DNA from: Acetatifactor sp.
GTDB taxonomy: Bacteria; Bacillota; Clostridia; Lachnospirales; Lachnospiraceae
DNA length: 35,299 bases
Direction of reading: 5' to 3'
Assembly (NCBI GenBank): GCA_029050705.1
Contig: JAIDME010000494.1
Location: 1 to 35,299, forward strand
In this document: positions 118-32,374 of the stretch, piece by piece
Layout of the letters: each line of letters starts with the position of its first letter
Numbering within the stretch: the stretch's first letter is position 1
Position numbers and translations under genes: made by a program
The notes under the pieces: generated by a model
Told to the model about the DNA's origin: nothing
Seen by the model: the letters and a program-made list of their open reading frames with translations, nothing else
Databases searched by the model: none

Positions 118-1764
118 TCAGTGCCCGGCCGTGTACGAGAAACTCCTGAAGCAGGCTGCCTGCTCCCTGCTGTCCCTGTCTGCCACCGCGTACATACCCA
201 CGGTACAACCCACAAAACCGCCCGCTACCTCGGTGGAAAGCCCCCGGATATCTATGTTGCCGCACAAAAGACCGGTGCCGGGGATGCTCTGTCCTGTGCC
301 TTCGACGATCCAGTCAGTCTCAAGCTCCACGAATGCGGTAAGTCCCTCCACCTTCATCGTCAGTCTGACCCCGCCGGAGACAGCATCCTCCTTCAGACTT
401 TCTGCATCCTGCCGGATCAGGTGTTTCCCCATGAGCTGATCCTCACCCTCCCGGCAGAGAATGACTGCTGCCTCTAAGCCCTCTTCCCCGCAGCCGACCT
501 CCGCCCGCAGATGAAACTCATTGCTCTGTACCAGTGCAATACCGGCGCGCCTGCCCTCTGTCAGATTCTCCGTCTGAAAGACGGCGGATGCCCGAAAGCT
601 ATGGTGCTGCTGTCTCACGCAGACATAGGAGGGACTGTCCTTCTCCTTTAAAGTAATGCTGCGGAAGGCAAGCTTCAGACCCTCTTTATCCAGAGCGTAC
701 ATATCTTCCCCGGGATTGCGCAGGGTGAGGAATTCGTCCCCCAGCCTGTCCATAGCAGTGAAATCATAGATGCGGCTGCTGCCGGGCACACAGTTGGCCG
801 ATGTGTCATAGGTTCCGTCTCCCACAGGATTCCACTCCGGCAGATCGATCTCCACCTCATCCGTAAGAATTCCCACGCCGGGATTTACCACCGGCCAGCC
901 GTTTTCCCAGACCACCTTTGCCAGGAAGGTCTCTCTGCCCATGGTTGTATAGCCTTCCAGCGGGCGCACCGCCAGCATCACCATATACCACTCCCCCCTG
1001 GGGGTCTCGACCATGTCCGCATGGCCTACGTATTTGACAGGATATGCCTGCCCCAGATGCCTGTGGGTAAGGATGGGATTGCAGAAATTGTTTTCATAAG
1101 GACCGTAAATCTCCCTGCTCCTGCACACAGTCACGGCATGCTCCGGGCCTGTCCCGCCCTCCGCATGCATAATGTAGTAATAGCCGTCCTTTTTATAGAG
1201 ATGGGGGCCCTCCGGCCAATGGACGCCCCGCATGGCACCGTTCCAGACGTTATGTACCTCTCCCACCAGCTTCATCTGTCCGATGTCCAGTTCCTGAATC
1301 CAGATAAAGTAATCGCCGTCATATCTGCAGCCTTCAGGATTGGGATGGGTTCCGATATAATAGCACTTCCCGTCATCATCAAAGAACAGACTGGGGTCAA
1401 TACCGTCCGCTCCCTGCAGGTAATAGGGATCAGACCATGGACCCGCCGGGTTTTCAGCCTTCACAATATAGTTCCCGCCAAAGGACACATTGGTACAGAT
1501 GACGTAATAGGTGCCGTTGTGATAACGCATGGTGGGCGCGAACAGTCCCTGAGAATGCCCCGCATTCTTCAGAGGCAGCTGTTCCTGCCTGTGCATGGCG
1601 TTTCCGATCTGTTCCCAGTGCACCAGATCTCTGCTGTGCAGGATGGGCAGCCCGGGAAAATAGGCAAAAGTTGAATTGATCAGATAATAATCTCCTCCCA
1701 CCGCACAGATGGAAGGATCCGGATAAAATCCCGGCATGATGGGGTTCTTTGCTATGACTGACAT
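118..1764 (-). CDS. Glycoside hydrolase family 43 protein (beta-xylosidase/alpha-arabinofuranosidase type), probably cytoplasmic
   Basis: N-terminal NPIMPGFYPDPSICAVGGDYYLINSTF motif typical of GH43, with DGIDPSLFFDDDGK and GPHLYKKDGYYYIMHAEGG. RBS AGGAGGCGG before ATG; no signal peptide. Confidence 0.93.
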   Translation of the reverse strand: MSVIAKNPIMPGFYPDPSICAVGGDYYLINSTFAYFPGLPILHSRDLVHWEQIGNAMHRQEQLPLKNAGHSQGLFAPTMRYHNGTYYVICTNVSFGGNYIVKAENPAGPWSDPYYLQGADGIDPSLFFDDDGKCYYIGTHPNPEGCRYDGDYFIWIQELDIGQMKLVGEVHNVWNGAMRGVHWPEGPHLYKKDGYYYIMHAEGGTGPEHAVTVCRSREIYGPYENNFCNPILTHRHLGQAYPVKYVGHADMVETPRGEWYMVMLAVRPLEGYTTMGRETFLAKVVWENGWPVVNPGVGILTDEVEIDLPEWNPVGDGTYDTSANCVPGSSRIYDFTAMDRLGDEFLTLRNPGEDMYALDKEGLKLAFRSITLKEKDSPSYVCVRQQHHSFRASAVFQTENLTEGRRAGIALVQSNEFHLRAEVGCGEEGLEAAVILCREGEDQLMGKHLIRQDAESLKEDAVSGGVRLTMKVEGLTAFVELETDWIVEGTGQSIPGTGLLCGNIDIRGLSTEVAGGFVGCTVGMYAVADRDSREQAACFRSFSYTAGH

Positions 1765-1775
1765 ATTGCCGCCTC

Positions 1776-3206
1776 CTAATTCTTTTTCTCTGTAAAGGCA
1801 TAAAACGCAGGCTTCACCTGATAATGCTCATCAAACAGCAAAGGACACTGAGGCAGATTTTCGGTGCTGCCGCCGCCCACGTTGGAACTGCTCTGAAGCC
1901 AGGAATAGTGATCCACCGTCCCCCAGAAGGTAATGCTGGTAACACTGATATCCTCCGCCTCGTTCTCCGTCTGCATCACGTTGTACAGAAGCTTATAGCG
2001 GCCGTACTGCTTCTTGTATTCCGTTTCTTTCGCCTCATCGCTGCCGTCATAGCCTTCGCTGGCCTTCAGGTCAAGCTCCGAGAACTGCACATTCCCAACG
2101 ATGCGCGCATACTGCCGGATAGCATAATCCACCTTATCAAACGTGGGGGATTCCATACTGTAATGCCCCTGCATGCCCATAGCGGTTATCCGGGTTCCAA
2201 CGCCGGGTTCCCCTTCACGGGACTTGATCTCCGTCAAAAGCTCTTTGATATGCTCTATCTTGTTATCCATACACTCGTTATAGTCATTGTAGTACAGTTC
2301 AAGATCCGCAGGTGCATATTTATTGGCATAGATGAAAGCATTGATTATGAACTCGTTGCTCTGATAGACATGCCACCAGCTGGAGTTGCTGCCGTGGCGA
2401 TCCTCAGAGAGGGACTCATTGGGATTCTCGCTGTCGGTGCGGTATACATGGTCTCCATCGCTGCAGGCTTCGTTCACTACATCCCAGCCGTAGAACATAC
2501 CCTTATATTTGCTGTCCTCTCCGGTGAAATGAGTCAGCATGGTGCGAATGTACCATTCCAGACGCTTGTTCATAGTCTCCTTGTCCGCATACTCCTTGTT
2601 CTTGTCATAGTCCACATGAAAGAACCACTCAGGCGTCTGGGCATGCCATAACAGCACATGTCCCTTTACCATAATCTTGTCGTCCGGATGCTCCGCGTTC
2701 CAGTCATAAATCTTATCCAGCATCCTCTCCGCCCGGGAATAGTCCAGTTTCGGCACCACAATCGTCTCGCCGTTCAATTCCGCTTCCTCCGTGCCGGGGC
2801 AGCTTCCCACACTGTAACCCACCATGGCATCCGGCTTCAGCTCATTTCCGAATGTGATGGCATTAAAGTGGGTAGTGATGATCTCCCACACCTTCTCATC
2901 GTTCAGCTCGCCTTCCGTGGCTGCACAGCCAATGCGGCAGCCCATGATATCCATTACCGCATCTTTTAAAACAGGTACTTCCTCCGTTTCTCCCTCCTGA
3001 CCGGAGGTGCTTTCCTCCGATTCCGGTGTACCGGTCTCATCTGTTTCAGACTGTTCCGTTTCAACCTTCTCTGTTTCAGACTGATCTGTGTCTGTCTGCA
3101 CCGGACTCCCGCTGCCCTGTGTTTTATCTGTATCATTGCCGCAGCCGGCAAGCAGGGATGACGCAAGCACCAGTGCAAAAGCTGCACCTGCAATTGTTTT
3201 TCGCAT
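1776..3206 (-). CDS. Endo-1,4-beta-xylanase, GH10, secreted lipoprotein
   Basis: Lipobox LLAGCGN after MRKTIAGAAFALVLASS, then an acidic Ser/Thr/Glu linker. GH10 motifs GHVLLWHAQTPEWF, WDVVNEA, YNDYNE, QFSELDL. Start chosen at MRKTIAG (GGAGGTG RBS) rather than the ORF-track start at 3227. Confidence 0.94.
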   Translation of the reverse strand: MRKTIAGAAFALVLASSLLAGCGNDTDKTQGSGSPVQTDTDQSETEKVETEQSETDETGTPESEESTSGQEGETEEVPVLKDAVMDIMGCRIGCAATEGELNDEKVWEIITTHFNAITFGNELKPDAMVGYSVGSCPGTEEAELNGETIVVPKLDYSRAERMLDKIYDWNAEHPDDKIMVKGHVLLWHAQTPEWFFHVDYDKNKEYADKETMNKRLEWYIRTMLTHFTGEDSKYKGMFYGWDVVNEACSDGDHVYRTDSENPNESLSEDRHGSNSSWWHVYQSNEFIINAFIYANKYAPADLELYYNDYNECMDNKIEHIKELLTEIKSREGEPGVGTRITAMGMQGHYSMESPTFDKVDYAIRQYARIVGNVQFSELDLKASEGYDGSDEAKETEYKKQYGRYKLLYNVMQTENEAEDISVTSITFWGTVDHYSWLQSSSNVGGGSTENLPQCPLLFDEHYQVKPAFYAFTEKKN

Positions 3207-3239
3207 ATTCTCACACCTCCGAGTCATTTTTATATAAAA

Positions 3240-3245
3240 ATTATA
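3240..3245 (-). promoter_or_regulatory. -10 element (TATAAT on minus strand) of the xylanase promoter; no good -35
   Basis: ATTATA at 3240-3245 reads TATAAT on the minus strand, about 25 nt upstream of the GGAGGTG RBS. The -35 region (GGGAAT) is poor, as expected for an activator-dependent promoter. Confidence 0.5.
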
Positions 3246-3267
3246 ACGGATTCATGGAAATAATTCC

Positions 3268-3330
3268 CCATAATTCTTGCTGTTCTCTCCTCATTTATTG
3301 CTTTTTCTTCCTCATCTGTTGCTTTTTGGT
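3268..3330. repeat. Three tandem 21-bp direct repeats, candidate AraC-family operator
   Basis: ccataattcTTGCTgTTctct (3268-3288), cctcatttaTTGCTtTTtctt (3289-3309), cctcatctgTTGCTtTTtggt (3310-3330). The core TTGCT[GT]TT starts at 3277, 3298 and 3319, exactly 21 bp apart. Confidence 0.75.
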
Positions 3331-3332
3331 AA

Positions 3333-3361
3333 TTTACAATTTGAACTTTAAATGCTACAAT
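3333..3361 (+). promoter_or_regulatory. Promoter of the araC-family gene: TTTACA-17-TACAAT
   Basis: TTTACA 3333-3338, 17-nt spacer, TACAAT 3356-3361; followed by GAAAGGAAGG RBS and ATG at 3390. Confidence 0.65.
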
Positions 3362-3389
3362 AAGGATAATTACGAAAGGAAGGCAGATT

Positions 3390-4325
3390 ATGACAACAAA
3401 AAATACTCTGCAGGATCGTCAGATATATTACAGCGTAAATTCAGATACTGCTCAGAGCCGCATTCTTACAGGAACCGGGCAGGAGCTTGTCCAGTACCGT
3501 CAAAATACATTCATGCGCATCTGGTATAACGACTTGTACGCAGACTTCGAGCCTCACTGGCACTCTGCCCTTGAAATCATCACTCCCGAAGAAAACTGGT
3601 ATGATATTACAATTGATGGAACCACCTACCACTCCGTACCGGGCGATATCATGATCATTCCCCCCGGGGAACTGCATTCCCTGCAGGCACCGGAGACCGG
3701 CAGCCGCTTCATCTTTTTATTCGATTTGTCGACCTTTAACAGACTTCACGGTTTTGCCAGCATCCAGCCCATCCTGTCATCTCCCATACATCTCACCCGA
3801 GGCGCTTACCCCAGGATTTATGATGATGCCTACCAGCTCCTTGCGCAGGTTCGGAACGAATATTTTACCCAGAATGAGTTTGCAGAGCTGACAATATATT
3901 CTCTTCTGCTCAGCTTATTTGTCAAACTGGGGACTAACCATATGAGCAGCATTCCTCTCTTTTCCAACAGCAGGATACACAAACAAAAGGAATATGCTGA
4001 CAAGTTCAACACGGTCATGGACTACATCGACACCCATTACATGGAAAATCTGAACCTGAATGATATCGCAGACTCTATCGGTTTCAGCAAATATCATTTT
4101 TCCAGGTTGTTCAAGCAGTACACCAATTATACCTTCTGTAACTATATCTGCCATAGGCGCATCAAAATAGCGGAAGAGCTTTTGGAACAGCCGGATTTAT
4201 CCATCACCGAGGTTGCCCTGCAGGCGGGCTTTCCCAGCATTTCCACCTTCAATCGCCTGTTCAAGCAGACCAAGGGCTGCAGCCCCAGCGAATACAGAGA
4301 GAAAAATAAATCAATGCTTCTATGA
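3390..4325 (+). CDS. AraC-family transcriptional regulator with N-terminal cupin sensor domain
   Basis: C-terminal double HTH: LNLNDIADSIGFSKYHFSRLFKQYTNYTFCNYICHRRIKIAEELLEQPDLSITEVALQAGFPSISTFNRLFKQTKGCSPSEYR. Cupin-like N-terminus (HWHSALEIITPEENWYDI...PGDIMIIPPGELHSL). Confidence 0.95.
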   Translation: MTTKNTLQDRQIYYSVNSDTAQSRILTGTGQELVQYRQNTFMRIWYNDLYADFEPHWHSALEIITPEENWYDITIDGTTYHSVPGDIMIIPPGELHSLQAPETGSRFIFLFDLSTFNRLHGFASIQPILSSPIHLTRGAYPRIYDDAYQLLAQVRNEYFTQNEFAELTIYSLLLSLFVKLGTNHMSSIPLFSNSRIHKQKEYADKFNTVMDYIDTHYMENLNLNDIADSIGFSKYHFSRLFKQYTNYTFCNYICHRRIKIAEELLEQPDLSITEVALQAGFPSISTFNRLFKQTKGCSPSEYREKNKSMLL

Positions 4326-12134: not shown

Positions 12135-12165
12135 ATTATATTCCGCTCTGAGGAGCCCCTGTCAG
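12135..12165 (-). promoter_or_regulatory. Possible promoter for the adaptor/ABC operon (CTGACA-19-TATAAT)
   Basis: TATAAT complement at 12135-12140; CTGACA complement at 12160-12165. The 19-nt spacer is longer than ideal. Confidence 0.35.
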
Positions 12166-13064
12166 CTTCTTATGGCCTGCCGGAACCGGGACAGCAGGCC
12201 GTCTATCTTTCCCCTGATGAACTCTCTGCTCTCCTCCTTCACGAGATAATACAGGTAGTTGTCTCTCACAAAATCTCCGGACATTCCCCTTCCCATGATC
12301 TTGAAATTGACAAAGCCCCTGTCTATATAATCCCCGATTTCTTCATTGGAGATAAAAGCAGGACGTTTCATGCAGTCCTCAAGACTTTTTTGTGCCGCCC
12401 GGTTCGGACAGGGAAACTCTGTGGCGCGACCCGCCCCCCCCAGTTGTACCATCGACTGATGCCGATAATGCTCGGCGCGTCTGGTACAGCCCGGAAAACA
12501 GATCTCGTTTACCAGAATCTCCACCCGGCCCGCCTGATCTCCAACAGCCTCCAGCGCCTGCCTGTCATGATTCAGGTCATAGTCCAGAACTACCAGAAAA
12601 TAATCCTTATTCAGTTCCTCCAGAAGTCTTTCCACCCCCGTTATCCGTTTGGTGGTGGAAGAGATCAGCTTGTACTTCGGATATTTCTCCCGAAGATATT
12701 CCTCCAGAACGGGCAGGTTCACCAACACCTGATTGAGACCGTTGTCCGCCATTTCCATGATCAGGTTACAATAGGGATCCTGCAGATGCTTCTCCTCCAG
12801 CAGACTGTTGGTCCATGTGAAGCGGACAGGAACCTCCCTGTCATTATAGATCTTGAGTATGGCCTCTATCTCCTGCCTCCCGACACTTCCCATCACAGCC
12901 CTGCCCCCGTTCCATATTGCTCCCGGAAAGGTTCCGTAAACGGATCCGATCCGATAGCCCTCCCGGAAGCACTCCGGGTAATCCTTCATCAGATTCAGAA
13001 GGATCTGATTCAACAGTCTGAAATAACAAAATCCGGGCAGATGCCAATATATTTCCTTCACCAT
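12162..13064 (-). CDS. U32-like (peptidase U32/UbiU-V-like) TIM-barrel protein, paralog A
   Basis: EILVNEICFPGCTRRAEHYRH, FPCPNR...EDCMKRP, GFVNFKIMGR resemble U32 motifs. Many blocks shared with the adjacent gene (WNGGR, TNSLL, DPYCN, ADNGLNQV, EEYLREKYPKYKLISST, KDYFLVVLDY). Confidence 0.65.
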   Translation of the reverse strand: MVKEIYWHLPGFCYFRLLNQILLNLMKDYPECFREGYRIGSVYGTFPGAIWNGGRAVMGSVGRQEIEAILKIYNDREVPVRFTWTNSLLEEKHLQDPYCNLIMEMADNGLNQVLVNLPVLEEYLREKYPKYKLISSTTKRITGVERLLEELNKDYFLVVLDYDLNHDRQALEAVGDQAGRVEILVNEICFPGCTRRAEHYRHQSMVQLGGAGRATEFPCPNRAAQKSLEDCMKRPAFISNEEIGDYIDRGFVNFKIMGRGMSGDFVRDNYLYYLVKEESREFIRGKIDGLLSRFRQAIRS

Positions 13065-13065
13065 A

Positions 13066-14025
13066 TCATTCCTCCGGTATCCATTTCCTGGGTTTCATTT
13101 GATTCCATGTGATCACCTTGTTCGTCACCAGACTGTTTAACAGCATGATCCTTGCCTTGCCCTGGTGCTCCGGCTTTATCATGTAATGACAGTAGGTCTC
13201 CACAAGGTTAAATGAATTGGCCGTGCGCCCCTCCAGCTTAAAGTTCTTAAACCCCATGGGTACATATTTCTCCCAGATTTCCTCGGGAGAAATGTAGGTG
13301 CTGTAGTCCAGTATGTCGTAAATGGTATTATTCTGCCCGTACTCGCAGTGCCAGCCTTCCAGCGGAATCTGCTTATCCGGCGGCATCCGGCGGTTCTTTA
13401 ACAAAATACGCTGGTTCTTCGCAATGCTCTCATAATGCTTTCCCCTTCTGGGACAATCAGGCGTACAAACGGCATTCACCAGTATTTCACACCGGCCCCT
13501 GTCATGAATTTTCTCCAGCTCCTCAAATTTTCCATTAAAATTGTAATCCAATACAACCAGGTTGTAATCTTTTCCCAGCTCCTCGTTCACAAGATCAATA
13601 TCCCGAATCTCCTTACAGGTGGAGCTGTTCAGCTTATAGCCGGGATAATTTTCCCTGACATACTCCTCCAAAAGCGGCGAGAACACTATGACCTCGTTCA
13701 TCCCGTTATCCGCCGCACGCATACAGAAATTACAGTAGGAATCCTTTAAATCCTCTGCGTTTAACAGCATATTGGTGTAGGTATAACGGATGGGAATCCC
13801 CTTTTCGTTGACGGCCTTCACCACATTTTTCACAAAAGCCCCGTCGCACTGGTCAAAGTTGGACATCCTTCCCCCGTTCCAGAGGGATGTGGGGAACTCC
13901 CCGAAAAAGGATGCAATCCTGACGCCCTCCCTGAAAAAGTCGGGACGCAGCTCCTGAAGCCCGACAAACAGCATATTCAACGGGAAATTCTGCCTCAGAC
14001 CGGGCAGATGAAAATTCACTTCCAT
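13066..14025 (-). CDS. U32-like TIM-barrel protein, paralog B
   Basis: EILVNAVCTPDCPRRGKHYES, GFKNFKLEGRTANSFNLVETYCHYM (U32-like C-terminal motif), blocks shared with paralog A. RBS AGGAG before ATG. Confidence 0.68.
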   Translation of the reverse strand: MEVNFHLPGLRQNFPLNMLFVGLQELRPDFFREGVRIASFFGEFPTSLWNGGRMSNFDQCDGAFVKNVVKAVNEKGIPIRYTYTNMLLNAEDLKDSYCNFCMRAADNGMNEVIVFSPLLEEYVRENYPGYKLNSSTCKEIRDIDLVNEELGKDYNLVVLDYNFNGKFEELEKIHDRGRCEILVNAVCTPDCPRRGKHYESIAKNQRILLKNRRMPPDKQIPLEGWHCEYGQNNTIYDILDYSTYISPEEIWEKYVPMGFKNFKLEGRTANSFNLVETYCHYMIKPEHQGKARIMLLNSLVTNKVITWNQMKPRKWIPEE

Positions 14026-22475: not shown

Positions 22476-23384
22476 CTAGTCTTTCAGACCGGAACTGGCC
22501 ATCGTCTCCAGAATCTGGCTCTCAGAGAAGATAAATATCGCAATGGGCACGATCATAAGAACCACCAGCACGGCTGCACCCTGTCCTGTTCTGGCAATAC
22601 CGCCGCTCTGAATCTGCTGCATTGCAAATACGAGAGTCTTCTTCGCCTCTGAATAGATAAACGTAGATGCCCTGTTATTCCAGAGTCCCTGCACGGAAAA
22701 GATGATCAGCGTCATCCATGCAGGCTTAACGTTCGGCATGATTATGACCCGGAACACTCTCCATTCGCTTGCACCGTCTATCTTTGCCGCCTCAATCAGA
22801 GACATGGGCAGGCCTTCCATAAACTGCTTCATCAGGAACAGACCCATGGGAGAAGCGAAGGCAGGAATGATAATAGCCCAATAGGTATCAACCCAGCCAA
22901 GCTTGTTAATGATCAGGTAATTGGGTATCGCCGTAACATATCCCGTAAACATCATCGCAATGGTAACCAGCTTGAAAAAAGCCTGACCGCCGGGAAATTC
23001 ATACTTCGCAAGCACGAATGCCGCCATGGATGCAATGATCAGGTGCCCCGCCGTACCTACCGCCGTGATAAACACTGTATTGAACAGGTATCGGGAAAAA
23101 GTAACCCAGGACTTGCCCATGGTGACGAACAGGTCGGAGAAGTTATCCAGCGTCGGATTCTGCGCCAGAATCTTCGGCGGGAAACGGAACAGTTCATCCA
23201 GGGGCTTCAGCGCGTTGGATACCGCAAATATAATGGGGAAAAACATGATAAATGCCACCAGCAGCAGGAAAAGGTAAAGCGCTATATCTCCCCCTACGGA
23301 ACGGTTGGGCTTTCTCCGCTTGATCAGTTTTTTGCGATACTCTTTTTCGATGATTACATCTTTTTCTTTTTTCTTTCTGCTCAT
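22476..23384 (-). CDS. Carbohydrate ABC transporter permease (MalG type)
   Basis: EAAKIDGASEWRVFRVIIMPNVKPAW EAA loop; typical six-TM layout. Confidence 0.94.
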   Translation of the reverse strand: MSRKKKEKDVIIEKEYRKKLIKRRKPNRSVGGDIALYLFLLLVAFIMFFPIIFAVSNALKPLDELFRFPPKILAQNPTLDNFSDLFVTMGKSWVTFSRYLFNTVFITAVGTAGHLIIASMAAFVLAKYEFPGGQAFFKLVTIAMMFTGYVTAIPNYLIINKLGWVDTYWAIIIPAFASPMGLFLMKQFMEGLPMSLIEAAKIDGASEWRVFRVIIMPNVKPAWMTLIIFSVQGLWNNRASTFIYSEAKKTLVFAMQQIQSGGIARTGQGAAVLVVLMIVPIAIFIFSESQILETMASSGLKD

Positions 23385-23385
23385 A

Positions 23386-24324
23386 TCAGGTCCCTACTCT
23401 TCTCAACAGACTTTGGATTGCTTTGTTACACAGATACATCATTAAGAACAGAATCGTTGCAATGGAACAGGCGTAACCCATCTCAAATCTGGTAAAACCA
23501 TAGTCGAACAGGTGGGTAACAATCGTTCTTGCCGCATAATCCGTACTGGGATAGCCGCACAGCTGCATCGTGACATCGCAGACACCGAAGGCCTGGGTGA
23601 TGGACATGATCGCGCCGAACATCAGCATGGGCTTCATGTTGGGTAGCGTGATATACCACAGTTCCTGCCAGCGGTTCTTGATACCATCCATGTATCCCGC
23701 CTCAAACTGGGACCGATCCACGCCCTGAAGACCCGCCACGAAGGAAAGGAAACCGGTTCCCAGGCTCATCCACAGGATGACCAGCATACATACCGGAAGC
23801 ATATATGTGGGATTGATCAGCCACAGGACGGGCGCGTCGATAACGCCCAGATCCATCAGAAAGGCATTCACATATCCGTATGCGTCTCCTCTGAAGAATA
23901 CGGAGAAAATGGTAAAGAGGTTGCCCGCGATGGAGGGAGCATAAAACACAACCACCGCCACGCTTCGCACCCACCTGGGCAGCTCGTTGATCAGCCAGGC
24001 AAACAGGAAGGACATTATGTAGCCCAAAGGACCCGTGACAATAGCTATCATCAATGTATTTTTGATAGCCTGGAGAAAAATATCATCCTCCAGTATCAGG
24101 CTGATATAATTCTGAAGTCCTATAAATCTGGGAGGCTCCAAAATATTGTAATAGGTAAAGCTGAAGAAAATGGAGATCACTACCGGCGCGACAAAAAACA
24201 GGGCAAACAAAACAGCATAGGGCGCCAGGAACGCATAACACATTTTGCTTTTCTTTGCTTTTTTTACAGCCACCTGCAGATTATGCCTGCGCAGCATGAC
24301 ATACTTTCTAAAATATTCTTTCAT
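23386..24324 (-). CDS. Carbohydrate ABC transporter permease (MalF/UgpA type)
   Basis: FEAGYMDGIKNRWQELWYITLPNMKPML EAA loop; YAFLAPYAVLFALFFVAPVVISIFFSF. Confidence 0.94.
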   Translation of the reverse strand: MKEYFRKYVMLRRHNLQVAVKKAKKSKMCYAFLAPYAVLFALFFVAPVVISIFFSFTYYNILEPPRFIGLQNYISLILEDDIFLQAIKNTLMIAIVTGPLGYIMSFLFAWLINELPRWVRSVAVVVFYAPSIAGNLFTIFSVFFRGDAYGYVNAFLMDLGVIDAPVLWLINPTYMLPVCMLVILWMSLGTGFLSFVAGLQGVDRSQFEAGYMDGIKNRWQELWYITLPNMKPMLMFGAIMSITQAFGVCDVTMQLCGYPSTDYAARTIVTHLFDYGFTRFEMGYACSIATILFLMMYLCNKAIQSLLRRVGT

Positions 24325-24335
24325 TTTTCACTCCC

Positions 24336-27299
24336 CTATTCTTCCAACGGCATGCCGAATTCATTCCGTTTCTTATCTATCTCATCATTGATCTTAATAG
24401 AGTAGTCGATAATGGTATTTCTGACATCTTCCTTTTTATTGATAACTCTGCGGATGGCATTGGCGATGTGGCGTCCCGTATAGTAGCCTCCGGGAACCTC
24501 TCTGATACCCACCGTCTGTCTCCACTGTTCTGTCAGCACCTCAATATCGTCAGAGCTCCAGGACAACTGGCTGAAAGCATCTATATTCGCCGTGTTATAC
24601 CGTGCGGAGGACCCGAGCAGGGCCTCTATCTCTCTTCCGAACTGCACCTGCGTATCCGCGCTTGCCCACCATTTCATGAACTCCCAGGATTTCTGCCTCA
24701 GGCTCTCGTTGTCCGTGGCAATCATCATGGTCGCGCTTCCGGTGATGAAATCGGACCGGTCTATGTAAGTATTGCCGTTCTCATCCGTCCGCTCGGTACC
24801 GGGAATCAGTGTGAAATCCCAGAGTCCTCTGATCTCGGGTGCGGATACCATCAGCGTATTGTAAATCGAGTATGCCTGAACGCCTATGGGCATTTCACCG
24901 GAACGGAATCGGCTCACAAAATCATATATGGGAGGCAGTCCGTAGTCATTGAAATATTTTACATAATCATCAAAGGCCTTGACACCCGCCTCGTCATCCA
25001 CCGTTGTCCTGGTTCCTTTCTCATTATACAGATCACCGCCGTTCTGGAAAAGCAGCGCAAAATACATGGAAAGATCAGGGGCGTTGGAAGCAATGGCCGT
25101 GCTTGCCGCAGCGGTTGTGCTGGAACCGGTAGCCGTAGGCAGACCTACCGAAAGGTTGTTGCCCTGGATCGTAGGCAGCATTTCCTCCAGTTCCTTCCAT
25201 GTCTGGGGAACCTCCAACCCCAACTCTTGCAAAACGTCCTTGCGGTAGAACATAACGTTAAAGGTCTGGGTCTCCGGCAAGCCGTAGATCCCATCATCCA
25301 GCATATATTGTTCATAAGAGCTTCGGGTGTAATGGGAAATCACCTCTTCCCAGCCCTCAAACTGGGTAATATCCTCCGCCGCCTTACGCAGGGCGTAATT
25401 TACAGGCTGATCGGCTCCCACGGAGAGCACCACATTGGGACCTCTTCCCGCAATGACCGCGTTCAGCAGCGCATCCGCCGCCACAATCTCCACGTTCACC
25501 TTGATGCCCGTGTTTGGCGTAAAGGATTCATCCACCAGGGACTTTAAGATCGTTCCCTGGTCCCGGCCGGTGAGGATCCAGACCTTGATGACCTCCTCAC
25601 CACCCTTTTCGTCATATACATCGCCCACTGCGTTATAGTCCACCACGAAAGATGCCGCAAAGGACTTCGCTTCATGCCAGAGCTGCATGAAAACATTGGA
25701 CTTCTTCTTCTCAACCTTGGCATCCACTCCGCTGACCACAAGATAATCAATATCCAGCTTGGTCTCGCTCATAGTCAGAGTCGCCGTGCCCACCGCCGTG
25801 ATATTGTCCTTGAAGGTGGTAAATTCCGTAGTAATCTTTTGGGGTTTTGCACAGAAACGCTCCAGCTGCTGAGCCACGGTCTGAGCCGTTGCGATCTGAT
25901 CAGCCTTCTGGCCGCTGTACGCCACCATATCATCCACAATCTTATAGAGGCGCTTGGATTCCAGATCCATAGCCTCCATGACCTGGGGGTAATTCCGATT
26001 GATCTGATAATCTCTGTAACGATCGGGGTTTGCTCCGGTGTAGACAAGAACCTTTCTGTATATCTGATTCAGCCGGAACGTGGAATCCTCCAGCTGCTCC
26101 AGTATGGGGCCGAGACCTCCCAGCGCCGCTTCCAAACGGATCGTATGCTTCCCTCTCTCCAGATAGATCTGATAGGGCGTACCCTCCTCGTCAGCCAGCT
26201 CCTTATATTCCCAGTCATTTCCATACTCAAAGGAAACGCTCTGCATCTCGGAAAAAGGAACCTGACCATCTATGTATACAATTCTGTTGGAGACACTGCC
26301 TCTTGCATAATTCTGACGGCCCTTGAACATGATATTGTAATAGCCGTCCTCCGGCACTTCAAATTCCCATTCAATCCACTGCCCGGCACTTCTCCACGCG
26401 TCGCCGCCCACATAATTGAGTACTGTCTTCGTAACACTGTTTGGCTGGGTCGTAGGGGAAGATCTGTCATATTTCGCATACAGGGATGATTCGGAGCGCA
26501 GGGTGGAATCCTCCCCCTGTATTACCTGAATATAATTTCTGGCCGCCTCGGAAGTAGCAACCGCAGGCTGCTTTGCCCTGTACTCCTCATAGGAATCTAT
26601 CCGCTGAACTCCGCTGACCACCAGCTTTTTCAGCACCATGGGCTCATTTTCCGCCTCCAGGCCGATTTCATTTACACCCTTCTCCAGATAAAACAGATAG
26701 GGCTCCGTAATATACCCTCTGTCATCTCTGAAATAGGAACTCTGCCAGTCATATACCTCCACCTGGGTGGGGCGGATCTCATTGCCCTGATTGTCAACCC
26801 TGACTTCTCCGCCGTTGGTCCAGATTCTGGTAAAGGAAACATTTCTGGCATCCTCGAAAGGAATCTCGCCGTTTATGTAGATGACCCTTTCCGCCGCCAC
26901 ACCTCGTGACTGGGGAATCAGATATTCCATATAGACATTGTAATAACCTGTCTCCGGTACATCCACCTTCCAGCTCACATAGGAGCCGGTTTCGGTATAA
27001 AGTGCCTCGTCAACACCCTCATACTGAGTGACCCTGTTCACCTCTCCATCGCCGGAAGCCGTGTAATCAAACAGATCGACTTCAACGCTCTGGGTAGAGT
27101 ATACTGCGTCCGCATGGGCATTCAAATACCCCGTATAGGTTCCCTCTCTTTCCATGCCTTCCACGTCGGTGTTCAGATCCACGCCGGCATATTTGTCGTG
27201 ATAATCCTCCACACCCCGCAGCGACATAAGGACAGCGATCAACACGAGCGCTGCCACAACCGCTACTGCTGTAATTACTTTCTTAACAGAACTTTTCAT
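24336..27299 (-). CDS. Membrane-anchored substrate-binding protein with two N-terminal CBM-like beta-sandwich modules
   Basis: N-terminal TM without lipobox (KKVITAVAVVAALVLIAVLMSL). Two modules with parallel motifs: VSWKVDVPETGYYNVYMEYL...ERVIYINGEIPFEDARNVSF and IEWEFEVPEDGYYNIMFKGRQ...NRIVYIDGQVPFSEMQSVSF. C-terminal SBP (VIKVWILTGRDQGTILKSLVDESFTPNTGIKVNVEI...). Start at MKSSVKK with GGAGGAA RBS. Confidence 0.88.
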   Translation of the reverse strand: MKSSVKKVITAVAVVAALVLIAVLMSLRGVEDYHDKYAGVDLNTDVEGMEREGTYTGYLNAHADAVYSTQSVEVDLFDYTASGDGEVNRVTQYEGVDEALYTETGSYVSWKVDVPETGYYNVYMEYLIPQSRGVAAERVIYINGEIPFEDARNVSFTRIWTNGGEVRVDNQGNEIRPTQVEVYDWQSSYFRDDRGYITEPYLFYLEKGVNEIGLEAENEPMVLKKLVVSGVQRIDSYEEYRAKQPAVATSEAARNYIQVIQGEDSTLRSESSLYAKYDRSSPTTQPNSVTKTVLNYVGGDAWRSAGQWIEWEFEVPEDGYYNIMFKGRQNYARGSVSNRIVYIDGQVPFSEMQSVSFEYGNDWEYKELADEEGTPYQIYLERGKHTIRLEAALGGLGPILEQLEDSTFRLNQIYRKVLVYTGANPDRYRDYQINRNYPQVMEAMDLESKRLYKIVDDMVAYSGQKADQIATAQTVAQQLERFCAKPQKITTEFTTFKDNITAVGTATLTMSETKLDIDYLVVSGVDAKVEKKKSNVFMQLWHEAKSFAASFVVDYNAVGDVYDEKGGEEVIKVWILTGRDQGTILKSLVDESFTPNTGIKVNVEIVAADALLNAVIAGRGPNVVLSVGADQPVNYALRKAAEDITQFEGWEEVISHYTRSSYEQYMLDDGIYGLPETQTFNVMFYRKDVLQELGLEVPQTWKELEEMLPTIQGNNLSVGLPTATGSSTTAAASTAIASNAPDLSMYFALLFQNGGDLYNEKGTRTTVDDEAGVKAFDDYVKYFNDYGLPPIYDFVSRFRSGEMPIGVQAYSIYNTLMVSAPEIRGLWDFTLIPGTERTDENGNTYIDRSDFITGSATMMIATDNESLRQKSWEFMKWWASADTQVQFGREIEALLGSSARYNTANIDAFSQLSWSSDDIEVLTEQWRQTVGIREVPGGYYTGRHIANAIRRVINKKEDVRNTIIDYSIKINDEIDKKRNEFGMPLEE

Positions 27300-27398
27300 A
27301 GTTTCCTCCATTAAATTCAGTAATAAATGCCATAGAAAAGTGTAAAGAGCGTAAATACTCCACAAAATATTTCTCTATTTCTTCCGGGAACAGGTTAC

Positions 27399-27427
27399 TT
27401 TATATAGAAAGTATAACATGGTAACAA
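27399..27427 (-). promoter_or_regulatory. Promoter of the importer operon: TTGTTA-17-TATAAA
   Basis: Minus strand -35 TTGTTA (27427-27422), 17-nt spacer, -10 TATAAA (27404-27399), about 100 nt upstream of the SBP start. Confidence 0.55.
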
Positions 27428-27437
27428 AATAACATCT

Positions 27438-27479
27438 CCTCAAATATTGCTTATGTTTAATTAAATTTTGCTCTTTGAA
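27438..27479. repeat. Two 21-bp-spaced copies of the same motif as 3268-3330; candidate AraC operator
   Basis: cctcaaataTTGCTtatgttt (27438-27458) matches the 3289-3309 repeat at 16 of 21 positions; aattaaattTTGCTctttgaa (27459-27479). Cores at 27447 and 27468, 21 bp apart, just upstream of the -35. Confidence 0.65.
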
Positions 27480-27557: not shown

Positions 27558-30524
27558 TTAATGTGCTGATGAAAAACTTGTCTCCTCCGGTCCCAGATAG
27601 GACGGCGCAACATATGTTCCTTTTCTATAGATCAGTATTTTTTCAAGTACCGTCCCTGCCTCCAGCGCACCGATGACCAGTTCCTGCACTCCTTTCCCGA
27701 AGGACAGCGTCACACCGGTCCTGTGCTCCTGATCCAGCGCTGCGTTACACCACCTGCTGTCCCCGCATTCTCCGGCCCGGTAATCCGCGGGGAGAATTTC
27801 CGCTCTGACGGCTTTCTCTTCTCCTCCCGCCACCAACAGGTTCACACTTCCGTGGTTCACCAGAGGATTGGACGGCGCCGTGAATATATCCACCTGATAC
27901 TCGCCGGCCTCCTCCGCAAGGAAGCGGTAGACCAGTTCCGGCTTTTCCTCCTCTTCGGCAAATACCGCCGTGCCGGGGAACACTTTCATACCACAGCCGA
28001 ACTTCCCGTAATCCTCAAGCTTCTGAAAGCGTCCCTTCGCCGTATCCTTTTTCCTGCAGTAGTGCTCCGCACCGATGGCAACTATGCCGTTACGCTCCAG
28101 AAAAGTCATCTCCGGCAATTCCGCCGGACGGTAGCTCTCTTCCCTTCTGTCAAACCCGAGAACTGCTCTGCCCATGATCTCCACCGCAACTCTTGCGTCA
28201 CCATCACATATAATAAGTCTGACTTTCTGCGCTTCCTCCGGCAGCAGTTCTCTGTTACAGGCAAGCGTGACCTCCTGAAGCATCTCCGTTTCTCCGGCCA
28301 TGGGAGATACCGTAAGCCACTCGGGAAATGCATTCCGTTCTCCTTCCCCGCTGCTTCCGCCCTCCGGGGTTATCTCATAGTGCAGACAGCCGCATCCTCC
28401 GTTGGCGATCTCCAAAACTACCTTTTCACATCCGGCATATTGAAAATCAGGAACATGTACCACCATAGGTTCCCCGTAAACTTTTGTGGCCGTCCTTTCA
28501 TCATCACTGCGGGACACGCTCAGACGCGGACGGTGGGCGGGTTCCACTTCCATCATCACCGGATAACGGTAGTCATCATCATTCCACCGGACAAAACCGA
28601 TGTGCTGTTCCATCTGCATACCCTTCCACTTACCGTCCATGAAGGCTGCCCATTCCTTCACATATTCCCTGTCCTTCAGAATGCATTTCCGGGTCAGCTC
28701 CCCGTAGAGATTGGCCACAGGTCTTCCCTGGGCTGCATAATGGTGGTTTTTGCCTGCATAAAGGTGCATTTTCAAAAGATTCATGCTTGCCATGGCAGGG
28801 TAATGTATCATACTGTAATATGCCTTGGTTTCCTCCAGTTCCTCCATTATCTGCAAAGACAGCTTTTCCACTTCCTCCGCCTTTTCCAGCATCCTGTCCG
28901 TCTCTCCGTAATGGCAGGGATGATAAATCCCCGCATGAAGGGATTCCGGCCTGCGCAGACCATTAAGTCTGATGTAATCGGTAAACACCTTTCCGATCTT
29001 TTCTCTGAGAGCGGAATCCGCCGATGGAAATGTCTGTCCCACCCACTGCCTGGTGTACTCCTTATAGCTGTCCGGATTGGGATATCCCCATCTGTCATAG
29101 TCATAGGCCACAGCCAGGAAGTAACCAAGGGGCACTTCATGAAATTTCAGGTCTCCCACATTCACGATCCACACGTCCCTGACCCCGTATTCGTATACCT
29201 GTCCCATCTGTTCCCAGACTTTCGAATAGGGTGTGGAATCCACCCACTCATATGACACGGGACCACCGTGATAGTCAAAGTGATAGTACATGCCGAAACC
29301 GCCCTTGCGGTTCCGCATATCCTCCGTGGGGAGCGTCCGCACATATCCGAAATTGTCCTCGCACAGCATGCAGGTGACACCGTCCAGTCCTTCCCAGTTT
29401 TTAAGCCCTGTCGTTTCCCCATCGCCGTAAAAGTAAGGCTCAACCTCCTTATACAGCGCCAGCAGCATGGGAATTTCCCCGTTTTCCCGCTTTACATATT
29501 TATATATCAGTTCTTTTTGTTTGGTAATAATGTCTTTTAACAGGCTGATATTTTCACTTAAGGAAGCATCCTCCCCCAGCATGGAAGAATCCCTCTCTCC
29601 ACGCATCCCGATGGTAATGATATTCTCATACCCGCCGCTGCGCTTCAGAGCATCCTCCCAATAATTCAGAAGTCCCTGCTCGTTGGTATAGAAGTTCCAC
29701 GCGTTGCCGTATCTTGTTCCCTCTCCCCGCACCTTGTCCCATTCCTCGCTGGCGCGCAGGCAGGGTTCATGGTGGGAATATCCCATGACCACTCCGTAAA
29801 GGTCAGCCAGTTCCTCATTTGCACTTCCCGGCCCGTCCAGCGGAAAGCTGGCGGTCCACATGGCAGGCCACAGATAATTTCCTTTCAAACGCAGTAAGAG
29901 TTCAAACACATGGTCATAGGCTTCCGCGTTAAATCCGCCGAAATGCTCCATAACCCAGCTGCCGAAGCAGGGCCATTCATCATTGATGAAAAAGCCTCTG
30001 TACTTTACGCTGGGTTCTTTGGAAACGGTTTCTATATCTTCCCTGATGATAAGTTCTTCCCGATGAACCGGTTCCGCGTCCCCCCAATAGCACAGCGGAG
30101 ACACACCGATATATTCCGACAGGGAAAACATACCGTAGATCGTTCCTCTTTTATCGCTGCCGCAGATCAGCAGAATACTGTCAACACGGGATCCGCCGCA
30201 AAGAATTCCGCCATCCGGAGAAATCATCTTTATCTGATAGACCTCCCACTTTCTGCGGTTCTCTTCTTTCATGAGTTCACCCGTATCCACCAGACCCTTA
30301 TCGGCAAGCTCGTCAAGCATGGGGCTCTTCCCCAGTGTGGCGCACAAAATAATACTGATTCCGTCCCCCGAAGGAATCTCTTTCTCAGTCACAACCTCCG
30401 GTCTGTTGCCGGTCACCTTTCGAAAATCTTCCGCAACCTTTCCCGCAATTCTCCTGACTCCCTCATAGCCGCAGCTTTCCACCACAACAGTCGGCATATT
30501 TCCCTTTGTGAATTCTATCTCCAT
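27558..30524 (-). CDS. GH115 xylan alpha-1,2-glucuronidase, probably cytoplasmic
   Basis: VKYRGFFINDEWPCFGSWVMEHFGGFNAEAYDHVFELLLRLKGNYLWPAMW, MGYSHHEPCLRASEEWDKV, ITIGMRGERDSSM: GH115 hallmark stretches. No signal peptide. Confidence 0.93.
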   Translation of the reverse strand: MEIEFTKGNMPTVVVESCGYEGVRRIAGKVAEDFRKVTGNRPEVVTEKEIPSGDGISIILCATLGKSPMLDELADKGLVDTGELMKEENRRKWEVYQIKMISPDGGILCGGSRVDSILLICGSDKRGTIYGMFSLSEYIGVSPLCYWGDAEPVHREELIIREDIETVSKEPSVKYRGFFINDEWPCFGSWVMEHFGGFNAEAYDHVFELLLRLKGNYLWPAMWTASFPLDGPGSANEELADLYGVVMGYSHHEPCLRASEEWDKVRGEGTRYGNAWNFYTNEQGLLNYWEDALKRSGGYENIITIGMRGERDSSMLGEDASLSENISLLKDIITKQKELIYKYVKRENGEIPMLLALYKEVEPYFYGDGETTGLKNWEGLDGVTCMLCEDNFGYVRTLPTEDMRNRKGGFGMYYHFDYHGGPVSYEWVDSTPYSKVWEQMGQVYEYGVRDVWIVNVGDLKFHEVPLGYFLAVAYDYDRWGYPNPDSYKEYTRQWVGQTFPSADSALREKIGKVFTDYIRLNGLRRPESLHAGIYHPCHYGETDRMLEKAEEVEKLSLQIMEELEETKAYYSMIHYPAMASMNLLKMHLYAGKNHHYAAQGRPVANLYGELTRKCILKDREYVKEWAAFMDGKWKGMQMEQHIGFVRWNDDDYRYPVMMEVEPAHRPRLSVSRSDDERTATKVYGEPMVVHVPDFQYAGCEKVVLEIANGGCGCLHYEITPEGGSSGEGERNAFPEWLTVSPMAGETEMLQEVTLACNRELLPEEAQKVRLIICDGDARVAVEIMGRAVLGFDRREESYRPAELPEMTFLERNGIVAIGAEHYCRKKDTAKGRFQKLEDYGKFGCGMKVFPGTAVFAEEEEKPELVYRFLAEEAGEYQVDIFTAPSNPLVNHGSVNLLVAGGEEKAVRAEILPADYRAGECGDSRWCNAALDQEHRTGVTLSFGKGVQELVIGALEAGTVLEKILIYRKGTYVAPSYLGPEETSFSSAH

Positions 30525-30550: not shown

Positions 30551-32374
30551 CTACTCTACATATCCGAACCCTAAGATAGTAAACTCCCTGCCTTCGTCTC
30601 CCTCTGCCATGCATATTTCCACATGATGCTGCTTTCGCTCCGCGCCGCGGAAACAGATGACGGGATTACAGTGGGTCCATCCGTTGACATGGGGGTCCGC
30701 CGTGAGAACCTTTCTCCCGTCCACCAGGACATCCGCGCATCCTACGCTGCCGCTTCCTGAATCCTTGTAAATAAGCAGCAGTGCAGTACAGGTGATGTCA
30801 ATGGAAAAGGGATTTTCCGTCTCCTCGCCTGTCCCATGCATCCAGTTGTTGGGGAATTGCTTCGTGGGTGTCAGATCCTTGTCCATCTCCACCCCCTGAA
30901 GCTCCTCGTCCGTCCGGTTGAAATCTCCGCAGTCCACATGTATTTCCGGCACATTGCTGCTTCTGTCAAACAGCTTTACGGCCTCGAACTCCCCGCCCAG
31001 GGGAGGCTTTACACTGCTCAGCTGCAGAGTATCCTCCTGCCTTGGCAGCTTATCCACCGTCTGCAATAAATATGCGATACAGTCAGCCATAACGGTGTGC
31101 CCCAGATTCGTGGGATGATAACAATCATAAAAAAACTGGGGTTTGCCGAATACCTTTCCCGAACCGGTCTTTTTATAAAACTGTTCCACCACGGCATCTT
31201 TTACGCTCACCATAGGCAGATCATAGGCTCTGCCAACGGGTGACAGCCGCTCCTGCAGATTCCAGTCATTGTCAAACACCGCAAACAGCAGGATCACCGC
31301 CGGACATTTCGGGGCTCTCAAAATCCTTCTGACCAGAGAGTCATAACATTCTCCCTTTGTCTCATCCCCTTCGTCATTGACGGCAAACTCCACCACCACG
31401 ATATCCGGCTCCACGCTGCCGTCCCTGAGCACATCCCGCTCGTACCGCAGCATTCCCAGCTCGGAGGGGGTTCCCCCCACGCCGGCCTTAATGTAGTGGA
31501 TATTATCCTCTGTACCCCTGCCCGCAAGATCGCATAGCCTCTGAAACGCCTTGTAGGCATAGCATCCGGTGTTGATAGGAACGGCTCCCGCTCCCTGGGT
31601 GATGGACCCGCCGATAAAAGCTATTGTAATGTCCTCTCCCCGCCTTGCCCTGTCAATGGCCTTCTGAAGTCTTGCCGGGTTGCCCGTCTGCATCAGTGAC
31701 TTTCTCCGTACCTCCAGGTAATCCTCCGTCTTCAGATTCACCGGCGTCACCTCTATTTCCTCCGGCGCCTCAAAGCCTTCCTGAAGATAGAGTTTCACTG
31801 TCACACAGGCCAATTCGCCCGGACTCTGGAATTCAAACCGTATCTGCCCCGGCACGTCATCATCCTCTGACCATTCATAGTCCTCAAGCTTTACTGTATG
31901 CTCCGCTCCGTCTGCGGGTACAGGCACCCTTATCTGGGTTCCGGAGGTATAGGAATTCTTTTTCCCGTACATCTGAAACACGAAATCCACAGTCCGGTCT
32001 TTTCCCTCTTCCATTTCCACCGTAACGCCCATGCCGGATACCAGTTTTCGGAATCCTGCCGCCGTCTGCAGCAGCTCCAGCATATTTTCATCCTTCACAT
32101 TGCCCACAACCCGGGCACAGCTGATCATTCTGCCGCCGTCCATATACAGAAACTGAATCCCTCTGCCGTCAGGCTGAACGGAACCCGCAATCTCCTTGTC
32201 CCGCATGATGTAAAAGCCGCCGGGCTTCTTTTGAGGGTCTTTAGGAGCCCTGGGGCCTTCGGGAACCTTCGGCCCCAAGGTGGTCTTTTGGCCCAAGGTG
32301 GTCTTTTGGCCCAAGGTGGCCTTTGGGCCCAAGGTGGCCTTTGGGCCACCTGCCTGTACCGTATTCTCGCTCAT
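30551..32374 (-). CDS. SGNH/GDSL-type hydrolase, probable carbohydrate (acetylxylan) esterase
   Basis: ITIAFIGGSITQGAGAVP (block I), IVVVEFAVNDEGDE (block III-like), DCYHPTNLGH (block V). Esterase role inferred from the xylan context. Confidence 0.8.
   Translation of the reverse strand: MSENTVQAGGPKATLGPKATLGQKTTLGQKTTLGPKVPEGPRAPKDPQKKPGGFYIMRDKEIAGSVQPDGRGIQFLYMDGGRMISCARVVGNVKDENMLELLQTAAGFRKLVSGMGVTVEMEEGKDRTVDFVFQMYGKKNSYTSGTQIRVPVPADGAEHTVKLEDYEWSEDDDVPGQIRFEFQSPGELACVTVKLYLQEGFEAPEEIEVTPVNLKTEDYLEVRRKSLMQTGNPARLQKAIDRARRGEDITIAFIGGSITQGAGAVPINTGCYAYKAFQRLCDLAGRGTEDNIHYIKAGVGGTPSELGMLRYERDVLRDGSVEPDIVVVEFAVNDEGDETKGECYDSLVRRILRAPKCPAVILLFAVFDNDWNLQERLSPVGRAYDLPMVSVKDAVVEQFYKKTGSGKVFGKPQFFYDCYHPTNLGHTVMADCIAYLLQTVDKLPRQEDTLQLSSVKPPLGGEFEAVKLFDRSSNVPEIHVDCGDFNRTDEELQGVEMDKDLTPTKQFPNNWMHGTGEETENPFSIDITCTALLLIYKDSGSGSVGCADVLVDGRKVLTADPHVNGWTHCNPVICFRGAERKQHHVEICMAEGDEGREFTILGFGYVE
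32274..32345 (-). repeat. Four tandem 18-bp repeats inside the SGNH gene (encodes GPKATL/GQKTTL hexapeptides)
   Basis: cccaaggtggtcttttgg x2 (32274-32291, 32292-32309) then cccaaggtggcctttggg x2 (32310-32327, 32328-32345): an A-A-B-B arrangement with identical pairs. Confidence 0.95.

Follow-up and report, generated by a model that had tools for sequence, protein, structure and literature searches.

Three direct repeats with a period of 21 bp, situated between the gene of an AraC-family regulator and the divergent GH10 xylanase gene of Acetatifactor sp., are very probably the operator of this regulator, which, judging from sequence, would be an AraC/XylS-type activator serving a xylan regulon. 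They lie in a stretch of 35,299 nt (GCA_029050705.1, contig JAIDME010000494.1, positions 1–35,299, forward strand), hereafter called the window. We infer that the adjacent regulator is the protein that binds, that it activates rather than represses, what its inducer is and what the third unit does. The sequence of the switch, the set of its target genes and the recent duplication behind the third repeat are testable now, and the switch supplies, for xylan use in gut Lachnospiraceae, the explicit DNA code of a local activator along with a list of its targets.

The repeat array and its flanking promoters

Read directly, the array has TTGCTGTT at 3277 and TTGCTTTT at 3298 and 3319, with steps of exactly 21 bp, as stated in the original prediction, and its two right-hand copies, CCTCATTTATTGCTTTTTCTT and CCTCATCTGTTGCTTTTTGGT, show the predicted identity of 17/21. 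On the minus strand, i.e. that of the xylanase, the same DNA reads as three direct AGCAA-N4-TGRGRAGA-like units whose GCAA starts are 21 bp apart (cf. Table 1). The three-copy identity at period 21 amounts to 0.74. When the 183-nt intergenic region was shuffled 2000 times with its dinucleotides preserved, no shuffle reached this value, either at period 21 or at any period between 12 and 40, and a chance origin of the array was therefore rejected. An exact 5-mer occurring three times at 21-bp steps is found once in the 35.3-kb window, namely in the array, and Tandem Repeats Finder called the array at 3283–3327 with a period of 21. A looser statistic, which accepts every exact 5-mer found three times at whatever period from 10 to 40, was reached by 49 of the 2000 shuffles, so the short cores alone are only modestly surprising.

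The flanking promoters also agreed with what had been predicted from the DNA. The regulator is preceded by TTTACA-17-TACAAT, which has in addition an extended -10 TG, while the TATAAT of the xylanase promoter has a poor -35 hexamer 17 bp upstream of it. Since the distance from GCAA to the -10 is fixed at 35 bp, unit 3 covers the place of the missing xylanase -35.

Table 1. Coordinates of the repeat units, promoters and genes in the window (promoters and roles of units are predicted)
Feature	Position	Strand	Remarks
Unit 1, outermost, adjoins regulator promoter	3308..3323	-	AGCAACAGATGAGGAA; GCAA 3319-3322; lineage-specific extra copy
Unit 2, putative distal half-site of the conserved pair	3287..3302	-	AGCAATAAATGAGGAG; GCAA 3298-3301
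Unit 3, putative promoter-proximal half-site over the xylanase -35 place	3266..3281	-	AGCAAGAATTATGGGG; GCAA 3277-3280
Xylanase promoter -10, TATAAT	3240..3245	-	35 bp from unit 3 GCAA
Regulator promoter, TTTACA-17-TACAAT	3333..3361	+	extended -10 TG
AraC-family regulator, 311 aa	3390..4325	+	cupin-type sensor PF02311 and two-HTH DNA-binding domain HTH_18
GH10 xylanase lipoprotein gene	1776..3206	-	ATG at 3206, GGAGG just upstream
GH43 gene, downstream of xylanase	118..1764	-	same strand as xylanase
Second site, GCAA-21-GCAA pair upstream of ABC-transporter solute-binding gene	27435..27471	-	
Transporter -10, TATACT	27410..27415	-	again 35 bp from second GCAA
ABC-transporter solute-binding protein gene (SBP_bac_8)	24336..27299	-	
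Permease genes after solute-binding gene	23386-24324 and 22476-23384		

Other kinds of element were considered for the intergenic region. A structured RNA was rejected, as Rfam gave no match in 3100–3500, and so was an inverted-repeat operator, as the array holds no inverted pair. A CcpA cre site was rejected as well: matches in the window occur at chance level and none is near the array, and a search with the cre consensus, allowing at most one mismatch, gave no match near 3200–3400.

Conservation of the paired units among relatives

Conservation in orthologous intergenic regions had been set beforehand as the test that could refute the operator. A search for the regulator in 138 genomes of the genus gave matches in 71 (E≤1e-50), from which 50 upstream regions were used: those of the 44 best regulator matches, with at least 52% identity, and of six of the matches with at most 47%. 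The counted set comprised the 48 that were at least 250 nt long (L016 and L022 were dropped), and the relatives in all promoter counts are not independent of each other. A GCAA-21-GCAA pair was present in 37/48 of these regions, compared with 6/48 for the next best spacing and a single case at 21 bp on the opposite strand. The complete geometry, GCAA-21-GCAA-35-TANNNT, was found in 27/48 (next best geometry, 7; mean over 1440 geometries, 0.14); L028 has it too and stands outside the 27 because the geometry scan ended at 450 nt. For the transporter, 30 upstream regions were reduced to 21 by leaving out L108, with its 122 nt, and eight that coincide with a regulator upstream region; among these independent promoters, 19/21 carry the pair, and a TA...T hexamer lies 34–36 bp after the second GCAA in all 19.

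Removing redundancy (rows with 75% identity or more across 135 nt) left 27 promoters from the regulator side and 16 from the transporter side. In this non-redundant set, T+8, G+9, A+20, T+29 and G+35 are conserved, though none of them was used for selection, and the same is true of the -10 on the regulator side. Each unit consists of GCAA at 0–3, a conserved T/G at 8–9 and A/G at 13–14, that is, an A box and a B box about one turn apart, as in operators of the AraC/XylS family. Two direct units at about 21 bp and a proximal unit at or over the -35 are further features of such operators that these promoters share, the latter, as judged from predicted -10 elements, in the 27 regulator upstreams with a -10 at 35 bp and in the 19 transporter promoters with a hexamer at 34–36 bp.

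One might suppose that the repeats are no protein site at all and that they arose by chance or slippage in A-rich DNA, or that they are phased A-tracts which merely bend the promoter. An A-run does precede units 1 and 2, and the loose 5-mer statistic given above is compatible with this idea; however, positions other than A (GC of GCAA, T+8, G+9 and G+35) are conserved in divergent relatives, and the motif recurs at unlinked xylan promoters, so we consider such an explanation extremely improbable.

The geometry varies to some extent. The units are spaced by 22 bp in L015 and by 20 bp in L092, the distance to the -10 is 36 bp in L032 and L034, and L018 has the pair and no -10 at the expected distance. 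In L020, L023, L024 and L025 the divergent regulator-GH10 order is kept and the pair is absent; the transporter promoters of these genomes (L105, L106, L107 and L111) retain it.

The regulator and its proposed mode of action

The regulator has the composition typical of the AraC/XylS family. Its C-terminal domain matched HTH_AraC and HTH_18 above the Pfam cut-offs, which provides the two HTHs, and residues 52–173 form a cupin-like N-terminal domain (PF02311, AraC_binding; 35.4 bits vs. a cut-off of 21.1). Its matches in the PDB were the DNA-binding domains of MarA, SoxS, RamA and AraC. The recognition-helix regions, which read GFSKYHFSRLFKQYT and GFPSISTFNR in the regulator of the window, are nearly invariant across 30 orthologues, whose sequence there is not shared by the six alignable paralogues of the own genome. 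As far as sequences can tell, the conserved recognition helices and the conserved boxes fit each other.

In the mechanism we propose, the two HTHs of one subunit would contact AGCAA and TGRGRAGA of a 21-bp unit, boxes separated by about one helical turn, and a pair of direct units would accommodate two adjacent subunits. The proximal unit (3266–3281) would lie over the missing -35, so that the bound regulator could recruit RNA polymerase to the -10 at 3240–3245 and activate the GH10 xylanase and GH43 genes. The assignment of one subunit to each unit, with the lower one at the missing -35, follows by analogy with XylS and AraC. The cupin-type domain probably senses a xylan-derived sugar, and activation in response to such a sugar appears, again by analogy, the most likely behavior. 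The pair at 27435–27471 would play the same role for the ABC transporter, as would a third own-genome site for an esterase-GH39 locus (see below).

The same site at other promoters

A box pattern, GCAA-N17-GCAA-N4-TRNGRRGA, has four matches at three loci of the own genome and none in the reversed controls. Two of them overlap in the xylanase promoter, one is in the transporter promoter and one precedes an esterase gene (PF00756) that is followed by a GH39 gene, so that all are upstream of genes of xylan type. With a motif model derived from 33 pairs, from which the window and its sister had been excluded, the scores were 38.0 bits at 3265, 34.5 at 27435 and 33.3 at 3286, with 10.2 for the next match in the window, so that the two window promoters rank first by 23 bits. 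A looser pattern, AGCAANNNATGNGGA with two mismatches, was useless genome-wide (1382 matches vs. 560 reversed controls).

Throughout the genus, the geometry pattern gave 63 matches vs. 7 reversed controls and occurred in 38/71 genomes with the regulator vs. 10/67 without it (Fisher p 1.4e-6); the corresponding values for the box pattern were 74 matches vs. 5 reversed controls and 39/71 vs. 17/67 genomes (Fisher p 3.5e-4), these p values ignoring the relatedness of the genomes. The tie of the box pattern to orthologues at least 50% identical is weak (Fisher p 0.04). In the 67 regulator-less genomes it had 18 matches vs. 2 reversed controls, many of the matches being inside reading frames, where the reversed control is too lenient because a 21-bp period keeps codon phase. 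Among 30 automatically extracted box loci, 17 immediately precede a gene for a transporter, GH3 or GH10, 12 are inside reading frames with no adjoining xylan gene and one is intergenic before another gene. A further 16 loci were picked by eye and are thus a selected sample; L163 and L168 coincide with two of the 30 (L135 and L137), L160 corresponds to the esterase site of the own genome, and L167 was left out of the domain scan. A first scan of these loci revealed a downstream esterase, GH43, GH3, FGGY kinase, GH31, GH10 or GDSL gene in 10/10 cases; in a second one, 3/5 had a GH10, carbohydrate-binding or glycosidase-like domain and 2/5 an ABC exporter and a DNA methylase.

Many transporter promoters contain a second -10-like hexamer at 43–44, in several cases with TNGACA 17 bp before it, which makes the assignment of the transporter promoter ambiguous. 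The two -10-like hexamers, seen at 27395–27415 and in L103–L114, are 8 bp apart, and the outer one is often preceded by TGC and accompanied by the TNGACA -35.

It is also conceivable that the array belongs to, or is shared with, another AraC-family protein of the own genome, the adjacent regulator being a bystander. The own genome holds 16 regulator matches at E≤1e-10, the regulator itself included, and some genomes with the motif at a transporter promoter have no regulator match better than about 45% identity; for the latter reason, more than one orthologue group may use the motif. Against this, the motif adjoins the regulator gene in two gene orders, facing either GH10 or, in one clade, an ABC-transporter gene that replaces the xylanase as the divergent gene, and the recognition helices, conserved among the orthologues, differ in the six paralogues. 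We accordingly judge a different binding protein quite unlikely and retain the adjacent regulator as the candidate.

The third unit

When the window is aligned with eight relatives, both flanks stay in register, and one additional 21-bp unit is seen in two sequences only: that of the window and that of L009, its nearest sister (93% protein identity). The simplest explanation is that the distal unit was duplicated in tandem, and in phase, in the common ancestor of the window and L009. Because the third unit occurs in these two alone among the nine aligned, the units at 3277 and 3298 would form the core operator and the third would be an extra. The predicted operator is consequently borne out as regards the pair, found in 37/48 upstream regions, and has to be refined in three respects: the third repeat (3319) is lineage-specific, the pair also stands in trans before other xylan genes, and it is missing in the four regulator-GH10 regions named above.

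The outermost GCAA lies 14–17 nt from GTAAA, the complement of the regulator -35, in seven of the nine aligned sequences (L001, L009, L010, L012, L013, L014 and L017). Such proximity would suit a regulator that acts mainly by repression, either of the xylanase promoter or solely of its own, through unit 1 beside the TTTACA -35. We nevertheless regard this as unlikely, since the xylanase promoter has no good -35, the distance from the pair to the -10 is activator-like in 27/48 regulator upstream regions and is 34–36 bp in 19/19 transporter promoters with the pair, and in the transporter-divergent clade the regulator -35 is farther from the pair. Under the activator model, the extra third unit beside the regulator -35 may increase occupancy or provide the regulator with a means of restricting its own production.

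Longer arrays were observed elsewhere. L035 has a chain of four 21-bp units about 60–145 nt upstream of the regulator, and its neighboring gene does not match the GH10, GH43 or ABC genes of the window. In L015, inspection by eye revealed a further 21-bp array about 100–160 nt upstream of the regulator, the later units of which have ACAA instead of GCAA. With the extra unit of the window and its sister, these two arrays raise the possibility, which we put forward tentatively, that the operators grow by whole in-phase 21-bp half-sites, leaving both divergent promoters undisturbed, and that copy number is an evolving dial. If so, extra units would tune sensitivity or couple the regulator promoter to the array. 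Two-unit and three-unit versions of one promoter exist in close relatives, so the effect of adding a half-site is directly measurable.

Comparison with known systems

The half-sites of AraC are direct repeats. The araI2 half-site recruits RNA polymerase, according to an excerpt of PMC4760080; the window resembles the AraC system in its direct half-sites, in the proposed recruitment of polymerase by the proximal one and in the AraC-type N-terminal domain, but differs in site sequence and inducer. The XylS operator at Pm of the TOL plasmid, TGCA-N6-GGNTA-N6-TGCA-N6-GGNTA, is described in excerpts of PMC4514859 and PMC5481539 as two 15-bp direct repeats, each with an A and a B box, 21 bp apart, and the title of a work cited there indicates an overlap of the activator and polymerase sites. 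Both systems have a pair of direct units at a 21-bp spacing, and in both the A box lies 5' and the B box 3' within the unit. The XylS site proper is absent, however, since the window consensus, AGCAA-N4-TGRGRAGA, differs from it in both boxes (TGCA and GGNTA); moreover, the inducer is another one and the window has a third unit. At PmtlE of Pseudomonas, which responds to mannitol, the MtlR unit is AGTGC-N5-AGTAT, as quoted in PMC4514859. There, too, a promoter for sugar catabolism is preceded by two 15-bp direct blocks resembling each other, with an A-tract next to the first, whereas unit sequence, host and sugar are different. The kind of switch is already known, and the sequence of its unit is unlike those given in PMC4514859 for the sites of XylS, AraC and MtlR.

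Xylan-gene regulators of other Gram-positive anaerobes include XydR of Clostridium cellulolyticum, a two-component response regulator with an AraC-type DNA-binding domain, for which the accessible part of the paper gives no consensus site (PMC3572039), and, in Caldicellulosiruptor bescii, XynR and XylR (from an excerpt of PMC8579813). XydR shares the AraC-type domain with our regulator and differs from it in being a response regulator, while XynR and XylR belong to other families, LacI and ROK, respectively. As canonical mechanisms for hemicellulase genes, a 2024 review names, in the part available, two-component systems, ECF sigma factors and catabolite repression (PMC10766802). No paper on the regulator or the motif was found in the open-access literature searched, seen partly as excerpts, a coverage outside which most subscription papers fall.

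Further repeats in the window

Several other repetitive elements were noticed in the window. Inside the xylanase gene, 15-bp repeats (3039–3089, 3.4 copies) encode an acidic T/S/E-rich linker after the lipoprotein signal. The GH115 gene contains a near-perfect cre-like palindrome, TTGGAAACGGTTTCTA, at 30019–30034, such matches being at chance level in the window. Two adjoining minus-strand genes at 12162–14025 encode proteins of 300 and 319 aa that are alike by eye. Where the reading frame of the GDSL esterase begins (32266–32347), an 18-bp unit is repeated about 4.6 times and gives rise to a GPKATLGQKTTLG-like stretch.
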